From a virus, in IMG/VR virus record IMGVR_UViG_3300025927_000018, positions 1 through 34,913 of that record: a DNA stretch of 34,913 bases. One strand, given 5' to 3'. Below, one piece after another: positions 25,644 through 34,913 of the stretch (positions within the stretch are counted from its first letter, which is position 1; each line of letters starts with the position of its first letter). The notes beneath the pieces were generated by a model that was given only the letters and a program-made list of their open reading frames with translations, did no database searches and was not told the DNA's origin. A program made the translations under genes and the position numbers.

Positions 25644-26855
25644 TTACGCCTCATAATCTGTGACGTCATAAAGCTTTGCGAAGCGTTTTTCTTGTTCAAT
25701 TTTTAGGCCGAGCTCCGAAAGATACTCGGAGATCATGCCGTCGCGGCCGTCCTTGATCGAGTTCTCGATCAGGTGGGTTTGGCCGCTAGGCAGGGGTCCG
25801 CCCGCCTTGATGTTGAACATTTCGAGCGAGTCCATGTCGAGCGAGAATGCCCATCCGGAGAATCCGTTCTTGCCGGAAACGCCGTCTTCGAGCATCCAGT
25901 CGCGAACTAGCATCCAGACGCCGTGGCCCATCTGGATCTTCTGGATGTTGACGCCGAACACGGTCTCGGCGGCCTGGATCTGCATGTGGGAATTGCCCCA
26001 CTCGTGGATGGCCGAGATGACGCGCGGAGCTGCCAGCAGCATCCGGTTCTTGGACGAACCGTAGCGGAAGGCCGAAGCCGAGAAGGTCTCGAACGTCTTG
26101 CGGGTCAGCATGCCGCTCGCGTCGGTGACGTTGGTGGTGACAACCGAATTGAGGCCCATCGTGGTACGAACCGGATTAGAGTTCGGGCCGCCGGTGAGGG
26201 ATTCGGTTGCCGTGCCGAACAGGAACGAGGCGTTGATCTGCTGCTTGTGCTCGATGAGTTTCTTGGCCTGCTCGCGCTCGTACTCGCCGTTCGGAGCCGC
26301 GTAGGTCTTCGAGGCCATGGCGGTACGGGAGAAGCTCCAGGAATTGCGGAAGATTTCCGTGTAGGAGATCTTGGCGGACGGCGCCGTGCTCTTGCTGGTG
26401 GGCGTGACCGCGTTTTCCTCGTATGCCGTGCCGATGATCCGAAGCGCGGCGCCATTGTTGATGGTCTGCGCCGAAGATCCGCGAACGACGGTAAGCGTGT
26501 TGGTCGAAACCACCGTAACTCGGATGATTTCGGGAACGGTCGAGGAACTGGCCGATTGCGGAGCGATGAACAGATCGCCGGGAGCAAACAGCGTGCCGTC
26601 CGCGACGGTTACGCTGGTCGAGCCGGTTGCGCCATTCAGCGTTGCGCCGATAGTGGTCCAACGGGCGACAAAATCGTCCTCAAACCACTCACGCCGGGGA
26701 GCATCCACTTCCTGGGTGTTTTCGAGCTTGGTGAGAAAGGTTAAGATCGCCGCCTCGTTCGGTTCGAGCTCGGCCATCTTGTTGGCTACGTTCCGGACTA
26801 GTCTCGTCTCGGTAATAGCCTGGTTGGTTGTACGTGCGCCTGAATTTTGCGCCAT
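25644..26855 (-). CDS. major capsid protein
   Basis: A 403-residue protein of the right size for an HK97-fold major capsid protein, lying just after the scaffold gene. It begins with a helical arm (ITETRLVRNVANKMAELEPN, LTFLTKLENTQEV), then a beta insertion (SVTVADGTLFAPGDLFI). The helical core has RNSWSFSRTAMASKTYAAPN and EREQAKKLIEHKQQINASFL. The C-terminal beta strands contain MLLAAPRVISAIHEWGNSHM and VFGVNIQKIQMGHGVWMLVR. This pattern resembles the SU10-type capsid group (DUF5309). I see no cysteines. ATG 26855 follows AGGAG, and that AGGAG lies in a possible stem (see 26862-26885). The high need for this protein fits the hairpin after it. Confidence 0.8.
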   Translation of the reverse strand: MAQNSGARTTNQAITETRLVRNVANKMAELEPNEAAILTFLTKLENTQEVDAPRREWFEDDFVARWTTIGATLNGATGSTSVTVADGTLFAPGDLFIAPQSASSSTVPEIIRVTVVSTNTLTVVRGSSAQTINNGAALRIIGTAYEENAVTPTSKSTAPSAKISYTEIFRNSWSFSRTAMASKTYAAPNGEYEREQAKKLIEHKQQINASFLFGTATESLTGGPNSNPVRTTMGLNSVVTTNVTDASGMLTRKTFETFSASAFRYGSSKNRMLLAAPRVISAIHEWGNSHMQIQAAETVFGVNIQKIQMGHGVWMLVRDWMLEDGVSGKNGFSGWAFSLDMDSLEMFNIKAGGPLPSGQTHLIENSIKDGRDGMISEYLSELGLKIEQEKRFAKLYDVTDYEA

Positions 26856-28092: not shown

Positions 28093-28320
28093 TTAGGCGC
28101 TCCCTGTTCGGGTTACGCCTTTAAGCTCGGTCGGGAGCGCCTGAAGGATTTGCAGTTTCCCTTCATTGATGGCGGCTCGTACAATGTCGTTCGCGACGAT
28201 CGCGCTTCGGATCTCCGCCACGGTAGAGCGGGATTGATCCTCGAAGAACCGTGTGAGCGCTTCGCGAAACGTCTCTTCGTTCCAAAGTGTCGCGATCGTG
28301 TTCCGGTCCTGATCGGTCAT
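28093..28320 (-). CDS. small helical protein after portal
   Basis: A 75-residue, mostly helical protein (NEETFREALTRFFEDQSRST, VANDIVRAAINEGKLQIL). It starts at ATG 28320 with an ATGA overlap with the portal stop, so translation is coupled. No family was recognised. Its place between portal and scaffold suggests a minor head or assembly protein. Confidence 0.6.
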   Translation of the reverse strand: MTDQDRNTIATLWNEETFREALTRFFEDQSRSTVAEIRSAIVANDIVRAAINEGKLQILQALPTELKGVTRTGSA

Positions 28321-30485
28321 TGCGGAAGCGAACTAAATGGCTGCGGCTCTGGCGGAGCGGGCAAGTTCACCGGACCAGCCGGGGCTTGCGGTCCTGGAGG
28401 CATGCCGGGTACCTGCGCTTCTGGAGGCTCCGGCTGTGGCGAGATAATTCCCGCCTTGGAGAGAACTTGGACCTGCACGGCCGGCGGCTGATCTTCAAGC
28501 TTCATCGAAACTGACAGGTTCGTCTTGATCTCCTGCGGCGGAGGCGGGGGCGGCGGGGGCGGCATCCACTGTTGCCGGTCCTTGCCCTTGCCGAGCGCGT
28601 TCAACATCTCATCGCGCGCCTTTTCGACGTTGAACAGCCCTGGGGCCTGCGTCGCCATGCCGAAGAGCATCTGGGCGCGACTGAGCTTTGTATCGTCGTC
28701 ATCGGAAAGCGTTGACCCTACCTCAACCTCGATGTCGCCGTCGTCTTGGAAGTCCTCTGGAGAAGCGTTGATGATCGCCTGCGATGGGTCCGTGGCATTC
28801 TCGGGGGCCGGGGCCGCGTACCCTCCGCCGAAGTTGCGCCGGTACTGATCGGAGTTGACCTGTACATCCTCGGTCAGTTCGCCGCGGTTCAGGAGGCGCA
28901 TCATCTCCAGGTCATCCCGAAGCGCCGTGGTGAGCATGTCGACTTGCTCCCGGGTGAGAATATCCCCGTTGAAGGCCATGATTTTGGCGCCCGTAGCCGT
29001 GCGCGCCTGCTGGGGGTCGACGTTTGCCCCCATCGACATGTTGGTTTCGCCCGATGCGGTCTGAAAGGCGCGTGCGAGTGAGCTTTCATCGTTGTAGCTG
29101 GCCGATGCGGCCGCGAGCGCGGCCTGTTCGCCCATAACCCAGATCCCGCCGGGCCCTTTGGTCGTGTGAACGAGGCGGAATCCCTTCCCGCGCTTCATCA
29201 ATTCTGGATTGTCGTACAGATTGCTGTCCGTCGTGCCTACAAGCGGCCGCAAAAGGTTGTAGATCAGGTCCTCGCGCTTGGAAACTTGGTTATTGTGGAG
29301 CTCGTTGAGCCCGCGAACCATGCGCGCCGTAGAATCTCCTATGCCGGAGAGCAGATCATCGATGAACTTGAGCTCCGTGAACGCGATTTTGCCTTCAAGG
29401 TCGTACGGATAGGGAATTGAGCCGATCCAGAAGCCGTTTTCGGCCACATATTCGATGCGTGGGCTGGATCCGCCGACGTGGCGCTCTACAAATGTCCACT
29501 CGGGCCCGACGGACTTGGCGTCCTCGGTCTGCAAGAGCGAAACATCCGTCCGATTCGCCGCCGAGAGCAGCCTCGTACGCAGATTTCCCGGAACACGACG
29601 CGTGTTGTTCTTCGTGCTGCCGTTCGGGAAGGCGATCAGCAACTCATCCGCGTTTTTGGCGATATCCGGATCTTCCTTGCCGTAGGCAGCGACGAACTTC
29701 TCTAGCCAATCCATGTTGCGGCGCCGTTCGACGCAGAACCACCGCGAGGATTCGAGATCCTGAAATGCCGGCTCGGGGTAGCAGTCCCCGATGAACAGGA
29801 AATCGGCCTTTGGCCCCTCGTAGTACTTGAAAAGGTACTGAATCGGGATCAGGCCACCCTTACCGACGTCCTCCATGAGCTTCGCACTCAACATCTGCGA
29901 GATGTTCGGATCGGATGACGCGTCAACGCCCTCGGGGATTCCGGCGGCGGTCATGTAGCCGGCGAGTTTCTCACCGTACTGCTCGAAGATTTGCTTCTGC
30001 CAGTTGGGATCGAGCCCTTTCACCCGGCGCTTGCGCTGCGTCTCTTCGATGCACCAGTACCACGCCTGCACGCTCCAGCCGAAGATGGCCGCCTGCAGGA
30101 CGTGTTTCTTTTGAACCTTCTGCTTGCCGCCGCGATCCCACTGCCACATCAGCGTGCGGGTGATGCGGTCAGCGCGGTCCAAATCCTGCGAGATAAAACG
30201 GTGCGAGGGAGGCTGCGCCGTCACGCGAGCGACGAAACGGCGCACCAGCCCCCACGTGTCGGGCATCCCGATAGCGGTTTGCTCGGTGTCTTCCTTGGTC
30301 TTATCGTTCGGATCGAGGAACGGCAGCGCTTCACACTTGTAGTTCCGGAATGTGCGCTCCCACTCGTTCCAGTAATTGGCCTTGAGCCAATCCTGGCTCC
30401 GCCGGAGACAATCGATCACTTCGGATGACCGATTGTCCCGCGGTGGAGACAATGCCGATTTATCGAAAAACCCGACGTTTACCAA
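28317..30485 (-). CDS. portal protein
   Basis: A 722-residue protein of the size and position of a podovirus portal, the ring through which DNA enters and leaves. The N terminus (VIDCLRRSQDWLKANYWNEW, YKCEALPFLDP) and VRRFVARVTAQPPSHRFI match the early part of this family. A wing/stem region around LIYNLLRPLVGTT, and helices such as ALRDDLEMMRLLNRGELTED, follow. The C-terminal tail is disordered, with a run of nine prolines (WMPPPPPPPPP) and a Pro/Glu-rich end; the run could stall ribosomes unless EF-P acts. No ATG exists at the start: the only plausible start is TTG 30485, three bases after the previous stop, so translation may depend on coupling. Confidence 0.75.
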   Translation of the reverse strand: MVNVGFFDKSALSPPRDNRSSEVIDCLRRSQDWLKANYWNEWERTFRNYKCEALPFLDPNDKTKEDTEQTAIGMPDTWGLVRRFVARVTAQPPSHRFISQDLDRADRITRTLMWQWDRGGKQKVQKKHVLQAAIFGWSVQAWYWCIEETQRKRRVKGLDPNWQKQIFEQYGEKLAGYMTAAGIPEGVDASSDPNISQMLSAKLMEDVGKGGLIPIQYLFKYYEGPKADFLFIGDCYPEPAFQDLESSRWFCVERRRNMDWLEKFVAAYGKEDPDIAKNADELLIAFPNGSTKNNTRRVPGNLRTRLLSAANRTDVSLLQTEDAKSVGPEWTFVERHVGGSSPRIEYVAENGFWIGSIPYPYDLEGKIAFTELKFIDDLLSGIGDSTARMVRGLNELHNNQVSKREDLIYNLLRPLVGTTDSNLYDNPELMKRGKGFRLVHTTKGPGGIWVMGEQAALAAASASYNDESSLARAFQTASGETNMSMGANVDPQQARTATGAKIMAFNGDILTREQVDMLTTALRDDLEMMRLLNRGELTEDVQVNSDQYRRNFGGGYAAPAPENATDPSQAIINASPEDFQDDGDIEVEVGSTLSDDDDTKLSRAQMLFGMATQAPGLFNVEKARDEMLNALGKGKDRQQWMPPPPPPPPPQEIKTNLSVSMKLEDQPPAVQVQVLSKAGIISPQPEPPEAQVPGMPPGPQAPAGPVNLPAPPEPQPFSSLPQ

Positions 30486-30488
30486 GGA

Positions 30489-30857
30489 TTAGGTCCAGGT
30501 TCCTACCAATTGCGCCCTATATTTCCCGTCATCCCCCATGACAACGCGGGCCATGCCGATGCCGTTCTGCGAGCCGGCCGCCGTCAGCGTGGCCGCATTG
30601 TTGATGGAGGTCGCGGCGAGCACAAGCGTTTGCGCTGCGGACACAAAGAAGTCCGCCCACCAGCCGAGCGGCAAACCGTCGGGTAGCGTGATCGTTACCG
30701 ATCCTGAAGCGCCGGCGTTGCTGAACGCCTTGCCGTCATCGGCCTGGACGACGGTGTATGCCGCAGTTTTGGCGGCGACTCCGGTTCCTTTGTATCGGTT
30801 TCCGTTGGATGCCCGACGATACCCGTCCGGGCAATCCCGCATTCTTACTCGTTCCAT
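30489..30857 (-). CDS. small beta-rich protein between terminase and portal
   Basis: A 122-residue protein from ATG 30857 with AAAGGAG seven bases upstream. After a basic leader it has a beta domain often seen in phage fibres and decoration proteins: AAYTVVQADDGKAFSNAGAS, then SVTITLPDGLPLGWWADFF, then TLVLAATSINNAATL. It may decorate the capsid or be part of a fibre. It is not typical at this position. Confidence 0.6.
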   Translation of the reverse strand: MERVRMRDCPDGYRRASNGNRYKGTGVAAKTAAYTVVQADDGKAFSNAGASGSVTITLPDGLPLGWWADFFVSAAQTLVLAATSINNAATLTAAGSQNGIGMARVVMGDDGKYRAQLVGTWT

Positions 30858-30878: not shown

Positions 30879-31835
30879 TCAGGCCGCAGCCTGAGTGTGG
30901 GACCAGTTGTGCCTCTCCGATACCAGACGAGGCAAATAGGAAGCGTCGGACGTTGCGAGATATCTGAGCGTGTCGACCAGATGGCAGCGGAACTCGCTAC
31001 GATCCTGCTTCAGTTCCCTCTCTTCGCTCAACCGCTTCATGATCTTGTAGCGATGCTGGCGCAGTTCAAGAATCAGCTCGGGGCAGTCTTCGGAAATGTG
31101 CAGGCGCGGCCAGATTCCCTTGGTGTCGTGCTTGCGCGGCTGGAGTAGCGTGCGAACTGCATCCTCGCCGGCGTCGTGATCCTTGCGCGGGTCCGAGAAA
31201 TCCAGGCCGTAACGGTTGTAGCGAGTCGAGTAGGTTTCGTTCTCAACTTCCGAGGCGATGAAGCCCTTACCGGCCTGATCCATAAAGCGGTTGATAATGC
31301 GCTCCCCGCCCTTCATCCGGTAGACACCATACTCGCGGTCGGTTTCCGCGTGCCGCCACTCGATTTCGTTGCCTTCGAGCAGTTCCGCGATGGTCTGCAC
31401 ATATTCGCGGATGCTGTACTGGTTGTCCTGGTCCTCATCGCGCAAGCGCCCCTTGCGGCCGGAGATGATCGACGGCCACAGTTCGCGATAGACCCACCAG
31501 TCACTCCATGCGTCGATCAAAACCCACAGCGCCGCGTGCGGCGTGCGCGGGTGAGGATCGAGCGCCATATAGAGGCAGCCGCGCTTTGGAATGCTTTCAC
31601 GTGGAACAACGTGGATCTTAGGATCGAACTCGGGATACACCGTCGCACCGGAGAGCGAGTAAGCCTTGCGCTTTACCTCACGCTGGAAATGCGCCTCGCT
31701 GGTGAAGCGATTCCGCAATTCTTGGATTTTCTCGGGATGATTGCGGAACTCGGGGTCCGCTTCAATATCGAGATCGATGAACGCGACGCCGTTCATAGTG
31801 CGGTAGAGCGCAAGGCCGTGGCAGGGACCGTTCAT
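30879..31835 (-). CDS. terL: terminase large subunit, nuclease part
   Basis: A 318-residue protein with the C-terminal, RNase H-like nuclease half of a large terminase. The opening (LYRTMNGVAFIDLDIEADPE) matches the usual link after the ATPase domain. CLYMALDPHPRTPHAALWVL at about 87-106 holds the first catalytic Asp (LDP). Later acidic sites include AETDREYG, DFSDPRKDHDAGEDAV and, near the end, HLVDTLRYL. It cuts the concatemeric DNA during packaging. ATG 31835 overlaps the stop of the ATPase gene (ATGA). Most phages have one fused gene, so this is a split terminase or a recent frameshift-like break; the two must work together. Confidence 0.8.
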   Translation of the reverse strand: MNGPCHGLALYRTMNGVAFIDLDIEADPEFRNHPEKIQELRNRFTSEAHFQREVKRKAYSLSGATVYPEFDPKIHVVPRESIPKRGCLYMALDPHPRTPHAALWVLIDAWSDWWVYRELWPSIISGRKGRLRDEDQDNQYSIREYVQTIAELLEGNEIEWRHAETDREYGVYRMKGGERIINRFMDQAGKGFIASEVENETYSTRYNRYGLDFSDPRKDHDAGEDAVRTLLQPRKHDTKGIWPRLHISEDCPELILELRQHRYKIMKRLSEERELKQDRSEFRCHLVDTLRYLATSDASYLPRLVSERHNWSHTQAAA

Positions 31836-32590
31836 TCCAGCTCGCTCAGATTGCAGTGCTTGCCTATCTCGGACATCGGATAATCCGGCCACCGCGCCGG
31901 AAGGCTCGACTCAAACAGATCCGCAAACCAGCCCGGAAATGCCGAAGATACGCACCAGATTTTGAGGCAACGCGCCGCGATCGCCTCATTCAGAGACTCT
32001 TCGCCTTGCTCGATGATGGCCGACTCATCCTGAATGTAGATGGTGGGGTGCTCGGACTTGATCTTGCGCGGATCGCCAGGGATTCCAACGATCTCGCTGC
32101 CGTTCGACAGGCGAAAACGCTCATAGGGCTGATCTTTTAACGGTTTTGGCAGCGGCCATCGCTCGCGGAGGCGCGGAATTGAGTTTTCCCATAGGATTTT
32201 GCAGTTTTGGACGTCGTGCAGGGCGCGATCGTGATCCTGCGACTGGATAACCACCTTCGTTGCGGGGTGCGTAAACGCCGTCCACGCCGCGGCTGCCGAA
32301 ACGCACCACGACATCATCATGGTTCGCGATTTGTACGTGTAAACCGTCGGCTCGTTGGGGTCGAGTAAGACTTTCAGGCATTCAAGCAGGTATCGTTTCT
32401 TCGGGAACGGCTTGTACGGATCGAGTTGGTTCTGCTCGTCCTTCGTTTTCGTGCACTCCGTCATCCAGTAAAAGGCGTCCTCCAGGGCTTTCCGCGCCAT
32501 CGACTCCTGTATCAGAGCGTCGAGCGTTGCTTTGGTGTGCTCGTACGAGTTCGATAAATTCGGAGATTTTGCCGTGAAGCTCGGTGTCAC
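31832..32590 (-). CDS. terL: terminase large subunit, ATPase part
   Basis: A protein of 252 residues from GTG 32590, or 222 from ATG 32500 (MARKALEDAFYWMT), which has AGGAG close upstream. LEDAFYWMTECTKTKDEQN and PYKPFPKKRYLLECLKVLLD are typical large-terminase openings. A variant Walker A (YKSRTMMMSW, residues 86-95), Walker B (TIYIQDES, 183-190) and a coupling-like motif (CVSSAFPG) follow. It powers DNA packaging through the portal. It overlaps the preceding small-subunit gene by 91-209 bases or so. It stops at TGA just as the nuclease gene begins. Confidence 0.8.
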   Translation of the reverse strand: MTPSFTAKSPNLSNSYEHTKATLDALIQESMARKALEDAFYWMTECTKTKDEQNQLDPYKPFPKKRYLLECLKVLLDPNEPTVYTYKSRTMMMSWCVSAAAAWTAFTHPATKVVIQSQDHDRALHDVQNCKILWENSIPRLRERWPLPKPLKDQPYERFRLSNGSEIVGIPGDPRKIKSEHPTIYIQDESAIIEQGEESLNEAIAARCLKIWCVSSAFPGWFADLFESSLPARWPDYPMSEIGKHCNLSELE

Positions 32591-33044
32591 TGAGTTGCTC
32601 TAGCTGGTGCGTGAATGTGCCGGTTATTTCGGACTTCGTTGGCGCATAGGCGCCGTGAACGGCGAGTGCTTCGTGGACCGCATCAAGTCGACTCGGCCAA
32701 TCCGGGTGCTCGAACTTGGTGTAGCCATTCTCCGGGTCGCCCTTAACGATCAGCTTGGTCGCATTCAGCCCCGCGCGGAGCGTTTTCAGCGCCTCGGCCT
32801 GGGTTACGCCGTTGAGGTTCGCGATGCGCTGGGCGATCGACAGCGTCCGCTGGCCGGCGGCCACTTCTAGCTGATCGATCTGATTCGCGATGACCTTGCG
32901 GACGTTCTTCTCGGGCCATTGGAGTTTGAGCGCCTCGGCCGCGAACCATTCATCTACCTGAATCGGCTCTGGCTGATCCCGAGCGTAATCTTCGAGAACC
33001 CGCTGACGGTAGACCGCCTCGGTAGTCTTGTCCTGCTTCGCCAC
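32382..33044 (-). CDS. terminase small subunit candidate
   Basis: A 220-residue protein from GTG 33044, just before the terminase large gene, the usual place of the small subunit that recognises the packaging site. Residues 1-140 are helical (AVYRQRVLEDYARDQPEP, NVRKVIANQIDQLEVAAGQR, TQAEALKTLRAGLNATKLIV). A conserved-looking helix (QLEQLSDTELHGKISEFIEL) lies at about 143-163. The last ~45 residues, which overlap the ATPase gene in another frame, are Arg/Gly/Glu-rich and look less conserved. The call is by position. Confidence 0.6.
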   Translation of the reverse strand: MAKQDKTTEAVYRQRVLEDYARDQPEPIQVDEWFAAEALKLQWPEKNVRKVIANQIDQLEVAAGQRTLSIAQRIANLNGVTQAEALKTLRAGLNATKLIVKGDPENGYTKFEHPDWPSRLDAVHEALAVHGAYAPTKSEITGTFTHQLEQLSDTELHGKISEFIELVRAHQSNARRSDTGVDGAESPGGRLLLDDGVHENEGRAEPTRSVQAVPEETIPA

Positions 33045-33978: not shown

Positions 33979-34184
33979 TACAGTTCTCGCGATGCCGCCG
34001 CCTTCAGTCCATTCAGCGCTCCGATCGCATTCGGGAGAGCCGATCCGTGCAGAAAGATGCGTGCCTTATTGCGGTTAGCGATCTTTTCCTCACTGGGTTT
34101 TTCACCGAGATCTTCGTCTGCTGCAGCGCGAATGCGCGCGGCGAATGTCTCAATAAGTTTCACAGCATCGTCGATTTCTTTCAT
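33978..34184 (-). CDS. small helical protein
   Basis: A 68-residue acidic-to-neutral protein, mostly helical (EIDDAVKLIETFAARIRAAA, FLHGSALPNAIGALNGLK). ATG 34184 follows GGGAG at eight bases and overlaps the glycosyltransferase stop (ATGA). No family was recognised. Confidence 0.55.
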   Translation of the reverse strand: MKEIDDAVKLIETFAARIRAAADEDLGEKPSEEKIANRNKARIFLHGSALPNAIGALNGLKAAASREL

Positions 34185-34864
34185 CGTGTAATCTCCCGTA
34201 GGGCATGATTTGCGCCCGCGAAATTATTCGCACGTCTCCGTGCTAGGATGGCGGCACCGCGCTCGTAACGCTCTGGAGCGTTCTGGCGCTGATAGATACT
34301 GTCGAATGGCGCTGTGCCCCAAATGTAGTGCTTATGCTCGAATACCAGATGCCGCGCATCGATCACGACCCCATCCCTACGCGCCATTTCGGAAAAGTCA
34401 TCATCTGCCGCCATGCTCTCGTACTCGTGATAGAACAGATTGCCGATCCGCTCGTAGTATGGCCGCGTCAGAAAGCAGTTGATGAGCAAGCGCCGCTCAT
34501 CGCTGGGCGTGCCGGTCGAAACCTCGACCACGTATTCGCCGTCCAGATCGGTGACCACGTTCAGCAGTTCGGTGTCCCAGTGCGGAGGCGGAAAGAAATC
34601 GTCGGCCACTTGGATGATGAATTTCCCCGTTGAATGCGCGGCGGCGCAGTTCCAGGCCGAGGCAGCGTTATTTGGCCCGGTGTGTTCCACCACATGGAAC
34701 CATCCGTATTCCCGGGGAGCCAGCGCCCAATCAACAGTGTCCACAGCCAAGATGTACTCGATGTCCTGGGGATTATCCGCCTGCCCTAGCCATGCATCAT
34801 GGGCCGGCTTCCAGCGCTGATTCTTCAGGCGAGCTGTCGCGTGAACGAGCGAGAAGGTCTTCAT
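34181..34864 (-). CDS. GT-A fold glycosyltransferase-like protein
   Basis: A 227-residue protein. It opens with a GT2-like strand (MKTFSLVHATARLKNQRWKP). GPNNAASAWNCAAAHSTGKF then IIQVADDFFPPPHW at about residues 80-105 is the GT-A donor site with its 'ADD' acidic metal motif. A later AADDDFSEMARRDGVVIDAR may be the catalytic region. It would transfer a sugar; the acceptor is unknown. ATG 34864 is chosen because it overlaps the stop of the upstream gene by ATGA, as most genes here do. A GTG at 34882 is possible. Confidence 0.7.
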   Translation of the reverse strand: MKTFSLVHATARLKNQRWKPAHDAWLGQADNPQDIEYILAVDTVDWALAPREYGWFHVVEHTGPNNAASAWNCAAAHSTGKFIIQVADDFFPPPHWDTELLNVVTDLDGEYVVEVSTGTPSDERRLLINCFLTRPYYERIGNLFYHEYESMAADDDFSEMARRDGVVIDARHLVFEHKHYIWGTAPFDSIYQRQNAPERYERGAAILARRRANNFAGANHALREITR

Positions 34865-34913
34865 TGCTTCGGAAACGTCCACACGCGATTCTTCGGCGTC
34901 TTCGCTTTGTCAT
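34861..34913 (-). CDS. C-terminal end of an upstream phage gene (partial)
   Basis: Sixteen codons from the window edge (reading DKAKTPKNRVWTFPKQ) end in TGA overlapping the next ATG as ATGA. The tail alone does not identify the gene. The overlap pattern suggests it belongs to the same transcription unit. Confidence 0.45.
   Translation of the reverse strand, partial: DKAKTPKNRVWTFPKQ

Follow-up and report, generated by a model that had tools for sequence, protein, structure and literature searches.

How the terminase large subunit (TerL), the signature motor protein of tailed phages and of herpesviruses, transfers force from ATP hydrolysis to DNA movement via its lid and hinge is debated. TerL is normally a single chain in which ATPase and nuclease are joined by a hinge (PMC8589836; PMC7824862), and the two-domain protein has been called universal in jumbo phages (PMC7824862). 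The viral DNA analysed here, a stretch of 34,913 nucleotides (the window; IMG/VR record IMGVR_UViG_3300025927_000018), raises the question of whether such a motor can be encoded, and operate, as two polypeptides. The packaging genes of the window lie on the minus strand, and a sequence-only reading of them had proposed that the ATPase half of TerL stops with a TGA overlapping the ATG of the nuclease half. This overlap was confirmed (Table 1). The nuclease reading frame stays open farther upstream, to a GTG at 31892, and both the conserved domain and the positions where the homologous genes of relatives begin favour the ATG within the overlap as the predicted start of the second chain. A clear Shine-Dalgarno sequence was not found for this codon in the window, where the signal is weak; in the relatives compared, GAGG or AGGA precedes several of the nuclease-half starts.

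Table 1. Features of the TerL locus and its surroundings in the window.
Feature	Position	Strand	Description and basis
TerL ATPase-core gene	31832..32590	-	252 aa, stop TGA; fold match, motifs
Starts of the ATPase-core gene	GTG 32590 (first possible); ATG 32500 (alternative)	-	sequence
TerL lid, linker and nuclease gene	30879..31835	-	318 aa, ATG at 31835; fold, profile match, invariant acids
ATGA stop-start overlap of the two TerL genes	31832..31835	-	sequence; homologous site in relatives
Putative TerS	32382..33044	-	220 aa; position and conserved gene order; no family match
Gene downstream of nuclease half (g122)	30489..30857	-	122 aa; syntenic in relatives
Putative portal	28317..30485	-	722 aa; position and size; synteny with homologs of 39-47% identity in close relatives
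Major capsid protein (MCP), SU10 type	25644..26855	-	PF17236, E 9.6e-34; phrog_1328

Close relatives share the gene order TerS-ATPase-(other genes)-nuclease-g122-portal-MCP, in which TerS and portal are named by position. In all eight genomes examined (the window at 32382-32590, minus strand; L031; L109-L114), the ORFs of TerS and ATPase overlap out of phase by 139-259 nt as measured from the first possible start, and the TerS ORF ends 37-142 nt beyond the conserved D..YW codon in the ATPase gene. Farther downstream, eight large ORFs of 488-1148 aa (3157-23762, minus strand) have no PHROGs match, and the virion genes of the group are largely unknown to PHROGs. Kuura, EPV3, Tiera and PaMx41, which have related capsid proteins, were considered as a test of the site and set aside, their TerLs being of other types.

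Viewed in isolation, the locus, with its neighbouring ORFs in different frames and no sequence missing, would look the same if an ordinary one-chain TerL had suffered a recent frameshift, had become a pseudogene or had been misread. A sequencing or assembly slip is unlikely because an independent contig, IMGVR_UViG_3300009551_000091, carries the same bases over the shared 8 kb, with a sole mismatch at 34376. Furthermore, neither a homopolymer of six or more bases nor a slippery heptamer (X XXY YYZ) occurs in the final 150 nt of the ATPase ORF in the window.

An AlphaFold model of the ATPase half, built from the family alignment (pLDDT 87.0), has T4 gp17 as a Foldseek match (E 1.2e-10). Its residues 23-233 align with gp17 101-305 at a Z score of 22.4 over 200 residues, and residues 9-191 of the phage D6E TerL are covered as well; the ATPase half is accordingly modelled, and on that basis classified, as a predicted ASCE ATPase core of the terminase type. 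Walker A and B motifs had both been ascribed to this half. Walker B is present (TIYIQD188E189), with [DE]E at positions 188-189 in members and the glutamate invariant. The first motif has to be described differently, as a P-loop-like segment, K87-S-R-T-M-M-M-S-W95, with the lysine at the start of the loop and no canonical GK[ST]. Its consensus K-S-R-x-x-M-x-[ST]-W is kept in 12 members, all without the GK of GxxxxGK[ST]; shifted-lysine P-loops of a similar kind occur in terminases. The coupling motif III reads S215-S-A-F-P-G220, with an invariant S215-S-x-x-P-G220 pattern, and the residues invariant in 12 ATPase halves include K87, S88, R89, M92, W95, E189, S215, S216, P219 and G220. This conservation suggests that the chain is an active ATPase despite a P-loop lacking the usual GK[ST].

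The corresponding model of the nuclease half (pLDDT 82.1, likewise built from the family alignment) aligns over residues 12-299 with D6E TerL 183-416 (Z 18.6), and the P22 TerL nuclease matches it with a Z score of 15.9. This half is recognized with 96 bits by a profile built from fifteen intact TerLs of GenBank, and across 14 nuclease halves three acidic residues, D93, D186 and D288, do not vary. Fold and residues together identify a predicted RNase H-like TerL nuclease with three metal-binding acids. Its nearest GenBank relatives are the TerLs of ctKR88, ct7ZZ929 and ctf1B273 (MW202524, MW202601 and MW202497), at 21-27% identity. In a comparison with GenBank phages, the closest counterparts of the ATPase half of one member of the group (L041) are the TerLs of T4-like and jumbo phages, and those of its nuclease half are TerLs of the ctKR88 type; the origins of the two halves may differ. 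The TerL of ctRVW222 (MW202478; L021:991-2862) contains an intein-like insert near the C-terminus, which ends ...GLIVHNC before MDAMRYL.

As the ranges aligned to D6E, 9-191 and 183-416, follow on from each other, the two halves therefore tile one TerL, and the full domain order that had been expected of the two parts together was recovered. We take the ATPase core (subdomain I) of T4 gp17 to end near residue 313, with subdomain II (the lid) and the linker after it; the break, situated between the equivalents of about residue 305 of gp17 and the lid and linker, therefore falls between core and lid. The coupling motif and the linker thus lie on opposite sides of it, as had been proposed. The simple division into an ATPase half and a nuclease half stands insofar as there are two separate ORFs, but the break is inside the ATPase domain and the nuclease ORF also carries the lid. 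With aligned ranges that are computed and the subdomain border taken for gp17, the models place the cut within the ATPase domain, between core and lid, and not at the hinge between ATPase and nuclease.

Conventional searches missed this family. Neither half has a significant match in Pfam or PHROGs at the usual cut-offs, sequence searches of solved structures with the halves gave chance matches only, and a plasmid search with the halves gave no match. When IMG/VR was scanned with one protein at a time (ATPase half, nuclease half, capsid or portal), only the near-identical contig was retrieved. The family was opened by an alignment of three nuclease regions scanned against IMG/VR, and relatives were gathered by such alignment scans and a profile survey of every locus; all members of the group are contigs from metagenomes, most of them fragmentary. 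Because both halves remain below the usual Pfam and PHROGs cut-offs, virus survey tools relying on TerL as a marker may overlook the group, or count it as defective. Several PHROGs (10250, 6672 and 5653) are TerL families of nuclease length. In the annotation of actinobacteriophages, separate labels are used for terminase ATPase and nuclease domains. Given these labels and the nuclease-length PHROGs, there may be further TerLs that are split or fragmentary.

The same break had been suggested as something to look for in related genomes, and it was found: the halves are separate genes at the homologous position in 22 genomes including the window, down to approximately 25% identity (the window, L029, L030, L032-L039, L041-L043, L196, L198-L201 and L203-L205; L202 nearly duplicates L201, and in L042 the contig ends within the ATPase half). 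The spacing of the two genes ranges from an overlap or 0 to 3776 bp (the maximum in L037/L115), most members having 0.1-3.8 kb. The window, L039, L041, L042 and L043 share an ATGA at the homologous site, and L038 has GTGA there; in L203-L205 the halves overlap by 8-11 nt. Where genes intervene, they vary by lineage and comprise glycosyltransferases (L029, L032, L037), an RmlD-like protein (L037) and unknowns. The window itself has a glycosyltransferase gene outside TerL, upstream of the terminase genes (34181-34882, minus strand), to which the glycosyltransferase between the halves of L034/L112 (L112:7246-7956) is 38.8% identical.

Introns and inteins are known from terminase genes, for instance of Campylobacter phage vB_CcoM-IBB_35, for which removable elements were proposed (PMC3322345). 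The two halves could correspondingly be exons or exteins that yield one chain upon removal of an intron, intein or homing element, and the 0.1-3.8 kb between them in many members would suit this explanation. However, the loci of 10 members gave no Rfam match at E values up to 1, the content between the halves differs by lineage and consists of ordinary genes (glycosyltransferases, RmlD), every C-terminal half has its own start region, and in the window and five other loci stop and start overlap with nothing between them. We consider removal of such an element very improbable. A full-length TerL would be produced besides the short one if ribosomes made a programmed -1 shift, or read through the stop, at the ATGA. 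This is suggested by the frame of the nuclease half, which is -1 relative to the ATPase frame in the overlapping cases; this phase, however, is a consequence of any ATGA overlap. The mechanism is impossible where genes separate the halves, and with the slippery heptamer missing from the window's ATPase ORF over the stretch given above, it appears highly unlikely for the group.

Both halves are under strong purifying selection. In the pair compared (L033/L035), whose halves are 1.4 kb apart, the ATPase gene differs by 48 synonymous and 3 nonsynonymous changes (dN 0.0049, dS 0.35) and the nuclease gene by 65.5 synonymous and 8.5 nonsynonymous changes (dN 0.0116, dS 0.40). Together with the identical bases in the independent contig, the lack of a homopolymer at the site and a split that is shared across approximately 25% identity, usually with genes between the halves, this selection makes a recent frameshift, pseudogene or sequencing error extremely improbable, even though the TerLs of the outgroup are single ORFs. 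The relatives refute it, and the claim of a stable split is borne out by them and by the selection on both genes.

The distances of the N- and C-terminal halves are correlated (r 0.93 over 12 genomes; r 0.84 for the 9 closest genomes, a value reached in 1 of 5000 permutations), as expected for co-inherited genes, also from common descent alone. This bears on whether the halves still form one motor or whether pumping is left to the ATPase chain alone, the nuclease-lid chain having become a separate factor. Translocation without cutting exists, since the phi29 motor protein shares the common architecture and has no nuclease activity (PMC8589836). In one 30.6-kb record (L040, L188), moreover, a nuclease half, its frame opening at the equivalent position, is preceded by methyltransferase-like and other genes, and no ATPase half was detected. 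Against this, the lid resides on the nuclease chain, so that the ATPase chain would be without a part that known TerLs have, the halves diverge in step, and fused lineages are nested in the clade; independent factors are thus an unlikely outcome. A profile of intact TerLs gave one nuclease only in each of eleven genomes or records, mostly fragments, and a second TerL located off the contig is possible, most members being fragments.

The direction of change was addressed with a tree of the nuclease domain. Nearly all of approximately 50 loci with distant nuclease relatives (L117-L180) have an open frame of about 700-1000 nt ahead of the nuclease, and nearly all of these outgroup TerLs appear to be ordinary one-chain proteins encoded by single ORFs. 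The tree separates the outgroup from the split clade with full support, and the basal groups of this clade are all split. Nested inside it are two lineages with one ORF, L031 and L206 (with its near copies L207-L210); grouping of the split sequences without the fused ones was rejected (p-AU 0.0035). An intact TerL differing by a single base at the site had been named as what would refute a stable split; the one-ORF relatives instead have linkers of different length. With fused lineages nested and basal groups split, one split and two re-fusions, three changes in all, is the most economical history. The one-ORF forms are probably re-fusions, with the caveat that counting changes alone does not prove direction, and the split itself is, as judged from these sequence comparisons, ancient and not a frameshift. 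That both proteins can exist as one chain is evident from the fused relatives.

A single hint of a host comes from an Acidobacteria MAG fragment (QHYQ01000171.1; L181), in which an ATGA junction is present and the nuclease frame opens at the same place. Both of its halves are short, with an upstream frame of 81 aa and a nuclease frame that ends after 175 aa, and it may represent a decayed prophage or a mixed contig. A search of 396 genomes of this MAG's phylum gave no match besides the MAG.

We conclude that the TerL of this group very probably consists of two polypeptides, an ATPase core and a lid-linker-nuclease chain, which would assemble non-covalently into one motor. The first chain would provide the P-loop, Walker B and coupling motif III, and the second the lid subdomain, the linker and the RNase H-like nuclease. 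In members with overlapping genes, the ribosome ending the first chain may restart on the second by stop-start re-initiation; in the others, each chain would be translated from its own start. The lid-nuclease chain would then dock on the ATPase core where a one-chain TerL continues, so that the docked lid could close the ATP site and ATP hydrolysis could move lid and nuclease and thereby pump DNA, with the nuclease chain cutting the concatemer when packaging begins and again when it ends. It is likely, with somewhat more reservation, that the members constitute a clade, probably of family rank or above, whose two-chain motor is held together by docking only and which went through one early split and at least two re-fusions, the gap between the halves serving as a site for accessory genes. 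If true, a covalent linkage of core and lid would be dispensable for a DNA packaging motor. A natural cut at this position would show which link of the motor must be covalent, and the chains can be titrated and mutated separately.

In the literature searched, whose coverage was partial, there was no report of a stable two-gene TerL, and within this coverage the arrangement is a variant of TerL for which no precedent was found. Other phage enzymes are encoded as separate genes, such as the RNA polymerase subunits and minimal PolIII of jumbo phages (PMC7824862) and the DNA polymerase of MEP401 (PMC10580990); they resemble the present case in that a normally single protein is divided, but they are not terminases. 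The terminase of vB_CcoM-IBB_35 also has its coding sequence in pieces, whereas the group of the window has ordinary genes or nothing between the halves and no intron match. Like the ATPase chain of the group, gp16 of phi29, a phage without a cutting step (PMC8589836), is an ATPase chain lacking nuclease activity, yet the group always has a nuclease gene that is separate and conserved. The TerLs of ctKR88, ct7ZZ929 and ctf1B273, in contrast to the window's split protein, are single ORFs. With the one-chain TerLs of T4 (gp17), D6E, P22, HK97 and Sf6, the group shares the ATPase-core fold, Walker B, motif III and the three-acid RNase H-like nuclease, as well as TerS upstream and portal downstream; it differs from them in its two genes and predicted two chains, in the cut between core and lid, and in a P-loop with the lysine at its start and no GK[ST].
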